Below, one piece after another: positions 9,463 through 36,878 of a stretch of 64,000 bases of DNA. How positions within the stretch are numbered: position 1 is the stretch's first letter; every line of letters starts with the position of its first letter. Made by a program: the position numbers and the translations under genes. The notes under the pieces were generated by a model that had not been told where the DNA came from, did no database searches, and saw only the letters and a list, made by a program, of their open reading frames with translations. Source of the DNA: Olsenella porci (GTDB taxonomy: Bacteria > Actinomycetota > Coriobacteriia > Coriobacteriales > Atopobiaceae); assembly GCF_009695875.1 (NCBI RefSeq), contig NZ_VUNC01000009.1:1-64000 (forward strand), read 5' to 3'.

Positions 9463-9953
9463 AGGGCGGAGGAGGTGGTCCCGACGGCTGGGGCAGTCTC
9501 CGCCGTCGGGGTTGGCAAGTCCGCATGCGCGGCATCCCAGAGCCGCCTGCCGTCCGCGGGGAGGCAGTCGGGCAGGTCGGCTGCAAACTCCTCGCTCCCC
9601 CACTCGCACGCCTGACTGTAGTACCAGCACTTCCAGTCGATCATCGCGCGGGTGCGCTCCAGCTCCTCGATTTGCTCGTCCACCCTGCGGCGCTGCTCGC
9701 GGAAGAGCTCCAGCCGATCGTCGTAGGTGCTGGGACCCTCCTGACACCAGTCCATGAAGCGCTTGATGTCTCGGATCTCGAGCCCCGAGCGCTTGAGGCA
9801 CTCGATCAAACGCAGCGCCTCGATCTGGTCGTCGCCAAAGCGTCGAGTACCCGACGTGCGCTCCAACCCAGGAAGGAGCCCCATCTTGTCGTAGTAGCGG
9901 ATGGTCGAAACCGGAAGGCCGAACATCCGAGAGACCTGGCCGATTGTGTACAT
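9459..9953 (-). CDS. MerR-family regulator divergent from the alcohol dehydrogenase
   Basis: A 164-residue regulator. The N-terminal MerR winged helix begins YTIGQVSRMFGLPVSTIRYY at residue 2. It is followed by the effector-side helix pair (KRSGLEIRDIKRFMDWC) and a dimerisation coiled coil about residues 80-115. The C-terminal part contains the motif WKCWYY, shared with the second MerR gene of this window (55287-55745, YKCWYY), so the two are paralogues. MerR proteins of this type usually control a neighbouring aldehyde or alcohol oxidoreductase in response to electrophiles. The palindrome at 9974-9999 lies just before its start and before the dehydrogenase gene, so it probably controls both. 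Confidence 0.88.
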   Translation of the reverse strand: MYTIGQVSRMFGLPVSTIRYYDKMGLLPGLERTSGTRRFGDDQIEALRLIECLKRSGLEIRDIKRFMDWCQEGPSTYDDRLELFREQRRRVDEQIEELERTRAMIDWKCWYYSQACEWGSEEFAADLPDCLPADGRRLWDAAHADLPTPTAETAPAVGTTSSAL

Positions 9954-9973
9954 CGCGTGCACCTCAAATTCGT

Positions 9974-9999
9974 ATCTAGACCTAAAGCTAGGTTGAGAT
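9974..9999. promoter_or_regulatory. Probable MerR operator in the divergent promoter
   Basis: A 26-bp interrupted palindrome: outer arms ATCT (9974-9977) and AGAT (9996-9999), inner arms ACCTA (9980-9984) and TAGGT (9989-9993), centred at 9986.5. It lies 21 bp before the MerR start and 43 bp before the dehydrogenase start. Palindromes between the -35 and -10 boxes are the norm for MerR regulators. Confidence 0.6.
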
Positions 10000-10041
10000 T
10001 CTACAACAGAGAAGAACGTACCTTCGACGAAAGGAAGCGCC

Positions 10042-11208
10042 ATGCTCGGAGACTTCACCTACCACAACCCCTGCCGCGTCCACTTTGGGCCCAACGCGCT
10101 CGACGAGCTCCCCAGCGAGCTCGCAGAGTACGGCCCCAAGGTCCTTCTCACCTATGGCGGCGGCTCGATCAAGAGAAACGGCGTCTATGACAAGGTCATC
10201 ACCGCGCTTGAGGCTGCCGGCAAGACCGTGTTCGAGGTTCCGGGCGTCATGTCCAACCCCACCGCAGACAAGCTGCGCGAGGGCGCGAAGGTCGCACGCG
10301 AGAACGACGTCGACCTGATCCTGGCAGTGGGCGGCGGCTCCACCATCGACTACGCCAAGGGTGTCTCTGTGTCCGCATGGACCGAGGGCGACCCCTGGGA
10401 GCACCTGTACCTGCACATGGAGGAGCCGACCGGCAAGGTCATCCCCGTGGGCGACGTGTTGACCATGAGCGGCACCGGGTCGGAGATGAACGCAGGCTCC
10501 GTGATCACCAACCACGAGGAGGGCCTCAAGATCGGCCACGTGTTTGGCCCCAATGTGATCCCGCGCTTTGCCATCGTGAATCCTGAGGTCACCTTCACCG
10601 TGCCCGACTACCAGATGCGCGCAGGCATCTACGACGCCTTCAACCACATCTGCGAGCAGTACTTCTCCGGGACCGATGACAACACCAGCGACTACATCGC
10701 CGAGGGCCTCATGCGCAGCCTGGTGCACGCAAGCCGCATCGCGGTTAAGGACCCCACCGACTACGAGGCGCGCTCCAACATCAGCTGGGTCTGCACCTGG
10801 GCGCTCAACACGCTCATCGCGTGCGGCAAGTCGACCGACTGGGAGGTCCACATGCTGGGCCAGGCCATCGGAGCGGTTACCGACGCCACGCACGGCATGA
10901 CCCTCTCCGCCGTGAGCCTGCCCTACTATCGCCTGGTCATGCCCTACGGAGTGGAGAAGTTCGCGCGCTTTGCCCGTGCGGTGTGGAACGTGGATGACTC
11001 CGGCAAGTCCGAGCGCGAGGTCGCCGAGGCGGGCCTGGAGGCAATGAGCGAGTGGATGGACCAGATTGGCGTGGTCAAGAGCGCCCGCGAGCTGGGACTG
11101 ACCGAGGAGAACATCCCCGATGCAGTGAAGGCGACCTTCATCCTGGACGGCGGCTACCACAAGCTGACGACCGAGGAGGTCGAGCAGATCTTCCACGAGA
11201 GCCTGTAA
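10042..11208 (+). CDS. Iron-dependent alcohol dehydrogenase (BdhA/YqhD type)
   Basis: A 388-residue group III alcohol dehydrogenase that reduces aldehydes to alcohols with NAD(P)H. The nucleotide-binding GGGS motif is present (AVGGGSTIDYAKG, residues about 95-107). The metal ligands fit the family pattern D-X3-H...H-X13-H: Asp near 197 and His near 201 (YDAFNHICEQ), His near 270 (WEVHMLGQA) and His near 284 (THGMTLS). An earlier GG-rich loop (TYGGGSIKRNG) indicates the BdhA/YqhD subgroup, which often prefers NADPH. The start follows CGAAAGGAAGCGCC. It is divergent from a MerR gene and ends in a strong terminator, so it is probably monocistronic and induced by an aldehyde or thiol-reactive signal. 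Confidence 0.93.
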   Translation: MLGDFTYHNPCRVHFGPNALDELPSELAEYGPKVLLTYGGGSIKRNGVYDKVITALEAAGKTVFEVPGVMSNPTADKLREGAKVARENDVDLILAVGGGSTIDYAKGVSVSAWTEGDPWEHLYLHMEEPTGKVIPVGDVLTMSGTGSEMNAGSVITNHEEGLKIGHVFGPNVIPRFAIVNPEVTFTVPDYQMRAGIYDAFNHICEQYFSGTDDNTSDYIAEGLMRSLVHASRIAVKDPTDYEARSNISWVCTWALNTLIACGKSTDWEVHMLGQAIGAVTDATHGMTLSAVSLPYYRLVMPYGVEKFARFARAVWNVDDSGKSEREVAEAGLEAMSEWMDQIGVVKSARELGLTEENIPDAVKATFILDGGYHKLTTEEVEQIFHESL

Positions 11209-11235
11209 AGCCGCGGCGCGCAGACGGCATGCGCT

Positions 11236-11281
11236 GGGCCGGGACGGTGGGTTGAGCCTTCCGTCCCGGCCCGCCTCTTTT
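11236..11281 (+). terminator. Rho-independent terminator of the alcohol dehydrogenase gene
   Basis: Perfect 12-bp arms GGGCCGGGACGG (11236-11247) and CCGTCCCGGCCC (11261-11272) are followed by a T-rich tail ending at 11281. Confidence 0.9.
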
Positions 11282-11380
11282 CGGGCTTTGCCGCGGACGC
11301 CGGAGCCGGGTTTTGCTTCCGAGGAATATCGACCTGTAGCTATCAGTCAGACAGCGGGCAATCATCGACGAGCGGGACCC

Positions 11381-11625
11381 TGCTTAGGAATTGCGAGTAT
11401 TGGCAATCGATGGGGTCCCACGGGGGCGTTCTGCTGAGGAAACGCGAGCTTTGGCAATGAGGAGCCCCCGATGACTGCCAATACTTGACTTTCCTCAGTA
11501 GGTAAGTGGTGCGCGGGGCCGTGCGGAGCTACCGGATTGCCACAACTCGACTTTCCTCAGCAGGTAAGGGGCGCACGGTGCCCTCACCGAGCTCCAGGAT
11601 TGCCACAACGCGCATTTTCTCAGCA
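11381..11625. repeat. Convergent array of 27-bp TGCTGAG repeats, site 1
   Basis: Five copies of a 27-bp repeat are present. Two point right (11381-11407, 11432-11458) and three point left (11474-11500, 11536-11562, 11599-11625). The consensus begins TGCTGAGRAAR and ends TTGTGGCAAT or TATTGGCAAT. Same-orientation spacings are 51, 62 and 63 bp, near whole helical turns. The copy at 11536 differs from the one at 21305 by a single base. The inner opposed pair (11432 and 11474) can form a hairpin. The array lies between the dehydrogenase terminator and the alaX gene and contains no gene. Confidence 0.85.
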
Positions 11626-21304: not shown

Positions 21305-21467
21305 TGCTGAGAAAAGTCGAGTTGTGGCAATTCGAGGGGGCTGTTCCGCTGAGGGAGATGGTGTTTTGGCAACGATTGAGGGCAGAAACTACCCCGTGGT
21401 CTGCCAATAGCTCGTCTTTCTCAGCGGAGTGCGCCTCTCAATTGCCACAACTCGACTTTTCTCAGCA
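21305..21467. repeat. Convergent array of 27-bp TGCTGAG repeats, site 2
   Basis: The outer copies (21305-21331 and 21441-21467) are perfect 27-bp inverted repeats of each other, beginning TGCTGAG and ending TTGTGGCAAT. Inner copies lie at 21347-21373 and 21400-21426. Same-orientation spacing is 42 and 41 bp. Immediate flanks CGAGG and CCTCG extend the outer symmetry with one unpaired base. The element sits between two convergent genes in the 403-bp gap 21157-21559, which holds no gene. Confidence 0.88.
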
Positions 21468-36745: not shown

Positions 36746-36807
36746 TTGTACCCCCAACCAACAGCCAAGACGTGAAAGGCTGCTTACGCCGTTCAGAGCA
36801 AACGGAA

Positions 36808-36878
36808 AAGCAGCTGGCTGCCTGTTAGGGCCCTGTAGCTTTGCGTCACCGCCTTTCGGCGGCTTTGCCTTTATATTC
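36808..36878 (-). promoter_or_regulatory. Cyclic di-GMP-I (GEMM) riboswitch
   Basis: The minus strand carries GEMM aptamer landmarks in order: AAAGGCAAAGCCGCC, the GAAA tetraloop, GGCGGTGACGCAAAGC, then GGGCCCTAAC (receptor side) and AGGCAGCC. It lies about 65 bases upstream of the tip-adhesin ATG in the same orientation, so it should switch the pilus operon by c-di-GMP. I could not resolve the expression platform; GCAGCCAGCTGC followed by TTTT at its 3' edge may be part of it. Confidence 0.86.

Follow-up and report, generated by a model that had tools for sequence, protein, structure and literature searches.

The stretch of DNA analysed here (the window) comprises 64,000 nucleotides of Olsenella porci (contig NZ_VUNC01000009.1 of assembly GCF_009695875.1, a genome that is 98.95% complete) and carries, at positions 11381-11625, an array of 27-bp repeats (site 1). 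The array belongs to a dispersed, helically phased family, two other members of which enclose a gene encoding a nuclease-like protein. Five copies, two rightward and then three leftward, had been described in the original prediction and were recovered at the same coordinates: 11381-11407 and 11432-11458 on the plus strand, and 11474-11500, 11536-11562 and 11599-11625 on the minus strand, with start-to-start steps of 51, 42, 62 and 63 bp. The first of the leftward copies is of an inner type ending in ATTGGCAGT, the last is of an outer type ending in TTGTGGCAAT. A weak sixth copy with a weight-matrix score of 17.4 (11317-11343, plus strand) lies outermost, 64 bp or six turns ahead of the next one. 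A second array of the same family (site 2) occupies 21305-21467 and is delimited by copies at 21305-21331 (plus strand) and 21441-21467 (minus strand). It contains two weak inner copies, one at 21347-21373 on the plus strand, after a 42-bp step, and one at 21400-21426 on the minus strand (reverse complement CGCTGAGAAAGACGAGCTATTGGCAGA), which was read by eye from the sequence and lies 53 and 41 bp from its neighbours. The copies at 11536 and 21305 are identical in 26 of 27 bases, as noted before, and the pattern, with up to three mismatches, matched seven times in the window where 0.11 matches were expected. A 2,034-bp segment (9486-11519), which encodes a MerR-type regulator and an alcohol dehydrogenase and includes part of site 1, recurs with 96% identity in two further Atopobiaceae genomes (G085 and G108; L069, L070), in which the surrounding DNA differs from that of the window; the weak sixth copy is present in these shared segments, too. 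By its sequence, the segment appears to be a recent horizontal exchange with one breakpoint within site 1.

Searching the whole genome with a weight matrix revealed 112 copies scoring over 20 bits, distributed over 34 arrays. The unit is an asymmetric 27-mer, TGCTGAG[GA]AA[AT]NNCGAGTTGTGGCAAT, and the pattern matched 99 times versus 7 times for a reversed control. The family is dispersed. Copies on the plus strand precede those on the minus strand in 34 of 34 arrays (log10 p about -15 against random orientation; since some arrays share ancestry this nominal value is too strong, although agreement is still almost complete). Neighbouring copies on the same strand are 41-43, 51-53, 62-64, 73, 92-94 or 103-105 bp apart and those on opposite strands 42, 52-53, 83-84, 94, 104, 125, 135-136 or 146-147 bp; both sets are multiples of 10.4 bp, with a best period of 10.44 bp (R = 0.92). 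The further copies and the helical periodicity on which the original prediction had been staked are, therefore, both found genome-wide. Outer copies retain TGCTGAG...TTGTGGCAAT, inner copies drift to CGCTGAG...ATTGGCAGC. All arrays lie in intergenic DNA (the few overlaps are with starts of open reading frames that are over-extended or have weak support) and are bordered by convergent (11), tandem (17) or divergent (6) gene pairs; a function shared among the neighbouring genes was sought and not found. Some arrays at separate loci are alike through their spacers but have unrelated flanks: A14 and A24 are 90% identical over 165 bp, the limits of the likeness falling no more than one or two bases from 27-bp copies, A17 and A18 are 92% identical over 171 bp, and A06 and A31 are 88% identical in a stretch that reaches past the array. 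From these sequences it looks as if they had been copied as whole units. An ISL3-type transposase element sits in the outermost copy of array A04 (L034:2127-3341, at the end of contig C1); being merely an insertion into this array, its transposase was ruled out as a partner. Six contigs (C1, C9, C12, C13, C14 and C15; L084-L090) end or begin in the same sequence of approximately 120 bp, which suggests an unresolved multi-copy repeat.

Between two adjoining arrays, A12 and A13, which are separated by 1.4 kb, lies an open reading frame of 360 amino acids (G000:C8:451519-452598, G000 being this genome). Through these arrays the partner was traced, and 15 genomes were searched with its protein and the flanks of the homologs scanned. 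Homologs with arrays on both sides were found in G116, G123, G138, G134 and G023 and a homolog with an array on one side in G003; matches to the array model also surround a homolog in G133. In G123, G116 and G138 the two bracketing arrays mirror each other (+41+62-34-41 and +41-34-62-41). Both flanks carried repeats in 22 of 52 homologs versus 10 of 166 control genes (p 4e-9). Of 60 Coriobacteriales genomes, 45 encode the protein family, the largest number of members in one genome being 15. The bracketed partner gene, and a second array family in the same genome, go beyond the original prediction. A report of a partnership between such arrays and this protein family was not found in the open-access literature (subscription papers were outside the scope).

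Neither Pfam nor NCBIfam has a family dedicated to the partner and its homologs. Its N-terminal part begins with a conserved LSHTTALE and gave no confident family match. The C-terminal part matched MTES_1575 (PF18741) with E <= 1 in 7 of 22 members, the best (8.9e-8) remaining below the curated cut-off, and DUF559 (PF04480) with E <= 1 in 3 of 22, one of them just over the cut-off (2.5e-4). Among PDB profiles, the two best matches were to Vsr-like nucleases: I-Bth0305I (3r3p, E 0.12) ranked first, followed by an endonuclease-like protein (3hrl, E 1.2). An alignment of the 22 homologs has twelve invariant columns, including S179, P180, H252 and D261, while E182 is nearly invariant and D226 is conserved in most; we infer that E182, D226, H252 and D261 form an EDxHD-type set. 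These weak to moderate matches point to a Vsr/EDxHD-like nuclease domain.

Paralogs are flanked by quite different motifs arranged by the same grammar, among them TTGCTGCAACCG with steps of 41/41 (L190), CGCCGG..TTTGTGGC with steps of 41/41/41 (L180) and TCCGGAAnTGAGT with steps of 30/30/83 (L188). In families other than the one described first (family A), spacings peaked at 10.40 bp (R 0.50, p 2e-9). The genome of O. porci encodes a second member of the protein family (C1:590996-591979, L197), which is flanked by GTGTGTACACAC arrays. It had been predicted beforehand that this motif, too, would be dispersed and, indeed, it was found at 52 places per strand where the control gave 1-2; these form clusters whose steps are 73, 84 and 104-105 bp. 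On the protein tree, homologs with TGGCA-type motifs cluster (3 changes versus 6.1 when shuffled; 2 of 500 shufflings were as low), all of them lying in one ten-member group alongside three homologs with other motifs. Another homolog (L192, G005:C2:206036-206992) has long tandem arrays alongside it, with a 31-bp step, that appear CRISPR-like at first sight.

A strict motif search of 60 genomes gave no match outside O. porci. A looser one gave matches in G003, G116, G123 and G138, as well as in G085 and G108, which have only the 2-kb segment in common with the window. G116, G123 and G138, three species of one genus, use the motif CGTTGCGGAAnnnGGGGTTGTGGCAGn and contain approximately 45 arrays with copies at exactly 0, 41, 103, 136 and 177, in either orientation. 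With a model of copies 2-4, related arrays were found in 30 of 140 genomes of the bacterial family; some of these, when read out, had the same steps and other motifs. Neither motif nor protein was matched in viral contigs, phages or plasmids. Orthologous arrays keep their position between species. In 12 orthologous pairs, identity was 0.88 in the copies and 0.85 in the spacers versus 0.89-0.90 in the flanks; a higher conservation of arrays than of flanks, seen in one array pair, was thus dropped. Gap columns inside the array were absent in 9 of the 12 alignments while most flanks had indels, and the other three had gaps of 1, 9 and 10 columns, those of 9 and 10 at copies missing in one species. 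Since the arrays are nearly free of indels yet no more conserved than their flanks, it is the spacing and not the sequence that looks constrained. In genus g4, covariation between copies was confined to the innermost convergent pair, which is separated by a 6-bp gap (z 6.9 versus 0.3-1.9 for the other nine pairs), with 82 two-sided changes versus 47 when shuffled and only rare G-U intermediates. A structured RNA explains this less well than a cause at the level of DNA, which could be a symmetric protein contact or the correction of a near palindrome by template switching. In the same genus, the 35-bp spacer between copies 2 and 3 (L091-L130) contains a conserved stretch, GCGCCAACTGGGCGTTCTTCTCGCC, which some arrays have as an inverted repeat, GCGAGAAGAAC/GTTCTTCTCGC; another protein may bind there. 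Compared with G138, G116 has a 4.1-kb insertion, one end of which is near an array (L165 against L117); this suggests that arrays may be rearrangement points.

These arrays are probably dispersed, non-autonomous double-stranded DNA binding platforms for the cognate nuclease-family protein whose gene they bracket. A protein array had been one of three options in the original prediction and is the best of the three. Each array is a discrete intergenic element of approximately 160-290 bp, in which three to six asymmetric 27-bp sites, all on one face of the helix, are directed inward from either end. These would be bound by the cognate Coriobacteriales protein, with its N-terminal LSHTTALE region and its putative C-terminal Vsr/EDxHD-like PD-(D/E)XK nuclease-type domain, the single-copy gene of which itself lies between two arrays. 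Binding may be cooperative, with several molecules opposing one another across the array; such an assembly on one face, pointing inward, is the best supported mechanism. The dispersed arrays would then be non-autonomous copies of an array-gene-array unit, spread in trans or copied via nuclease-induced repair, and the whole-array copies favour such movement in the past. Several observations weigh against this. The periodicity tests use spacings from related arrays that are not independent of each other, and random control segments of G116 also gave a modest 10.4-bp signal (R 0.26), in part because these segments contain arrays, although their spacings are dominated by multiples of three from coding sequence. 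With E values of 0.12 and 1.2, the PDB profile matches are weak, some homologs have no clear arrays (e.g. L191, L199, L226 and L229), and a cognate gene for the TGATGGCA arrays of G089 was not identified. Flanking direct repeats of 2-10 bp were not in excess, giving no sign of target-site duplication, and a comparison of G116 with G138 yielded no clean empty sites, only decayed or replaced ones and deletions between direct copies.

Both halves of the proposed mechanism are biochemically plausible by analogy. The targets of AbiEi-type proteins are 23-bp inverted repeats, of which as many as four stand in tandem and whose spacing differs by approximately 10 bp between systems (PMC7319586), and EDxHD enzymes of the I-Bth0305I type bind a long target of nearly 60 bp as a dimer (PMC3943268). 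The AbiEi/Rv2827c operators resemble the arrays in their several tandem repeats and in this variation of spacing, but are single promoters adjoining a toxin gene, whereas here there are dozens of sites and a Vsr-like C-terminal domain; a DUF1814 toxin was not identified beside the arrays, although no search was aimed at DUF1814 near the bracketed gene. To EDxHD (Vsr-like) homing endonucleases the partner is linked by the best, though weak, PDB match of its C-terminal profile and by the conserved E, D, H, D pattern; unlike these, the proteins described here are not intron-borne, have 350 amino acids and a different N-terminal part, and would have dispersed arrays as targets. Closest in organisation is the REPIN/RAYT system, which likewise consists of dispersed extragenic inverted repeats, a single-copy partner gene bracketed by inverted copies and, within one genome, several flavours that have a partner each (PMC2817692, PMC3116915). 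The flanking of the partner gene is shared, but with a different protein family: the Y1 tyrosine transposase of RAYTs (PF01797) had no match in O. porci, while control genomes were positive, and the partner here is nuclease-like. REPIN units, moreover, are hairpins headed by GTAG or GTGG and not helically phased asymmetric 27-mers, three to six per array. From the lack of these two REPIN features, the Y1 transposase and the short hairpin, and from the negative duplication test for miniature inverted-repeat transposable elements (MITEs), it was concluded, within the open-access literature, that the array system is of a new kind. More tentatively, and with somewhat less than even confidence, we propose a new class of two-part elements, in which as many as 15 paralogous Vsr/EDxHD-like proteins of the nuclease family per genome would each assemble on their own dispersed family of phased convergent arrays and spread them by cutting and copy repair, as a nuclease counterpart of REPIN/RAYT. 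If so, dispersed repeats would have become linked to a single-copy nuclease-type gene a second time, independently, in evolution, which would bear on the persistence of REPIN/RAYT pairs. Through the association, a large and unnamed protein family, encoded by common bacteria of the gut and the mouth, is tied to specific DNA sites and its function becomes testable, and the strictly phased arrays are natural, ready-made test objects for cooperative protein assembly on DNA.

An unlikely alternative is that the arrays are permanent chromosomal sites of a DNA-bridging or autoregulatory host protein, following the operator logic of AbiEi, with nothing mobile about them. Orthologous arrays are indeed fixed in place between species with base-exact spacing, AbiEi-family antitoxins bind tandem inverted repeats as described above, and, in a test for the N-terminal winged-helix domain of AbiEi, one homolog gave a weak AbiEi_4 match (E 0.24). 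However, no function is common to the neighbouring genes, and convergent gene pairs surround 11 of the 34 sites. Whole arrays are also found again at loci that are unlinked and differ in their flanks, and the many paralogs, where bracketed and examined, have different array motifs. Very unlikely is the origin of the arrays as MITEs, remnants of an ordinary DDE transposon whose transposase would bind several subterminal sites as in the ends of Tn7 or Mu. Short length (160-290 bp), inverted multi-site ends and whole-element copies would agree with this, but here the sites span the whole element, target-site duplications are lacking and the bracketed gene belongs to a nuclease-like family and not to the DDE type. 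The sole transposase met beside an array is the ISL3 copy inserted into A04, and among the genes examined in related genomes no DDE transposase gene had these ends, although the search was not exhaustive. Least probable is a structured RNA or terminator, another option of the original prediction, in which inverted copies would work as hairpins once transcribed: the innermost pair covaries in g4 and the array in the window outscores shuffled sequence in folding (z -3.35), but the arms do not covary in this genome or between the other g4 copies, G-U pairs are very few where they do covary, arrays such as + - - - are unable to nest, the 10.4-bp rule also holds for same-strand steps, Rfam gave no match to a known family, and the covariation may stem from template switching across the 6-bp gap, by which the palindrome would be corrected.

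Apart from the arrays, the window contains a c-di-GMP-I-GGC riboswitch (Rfam RF03167) at 36805-36878 on the minus strand, with a score slightly over the gathering threshold.
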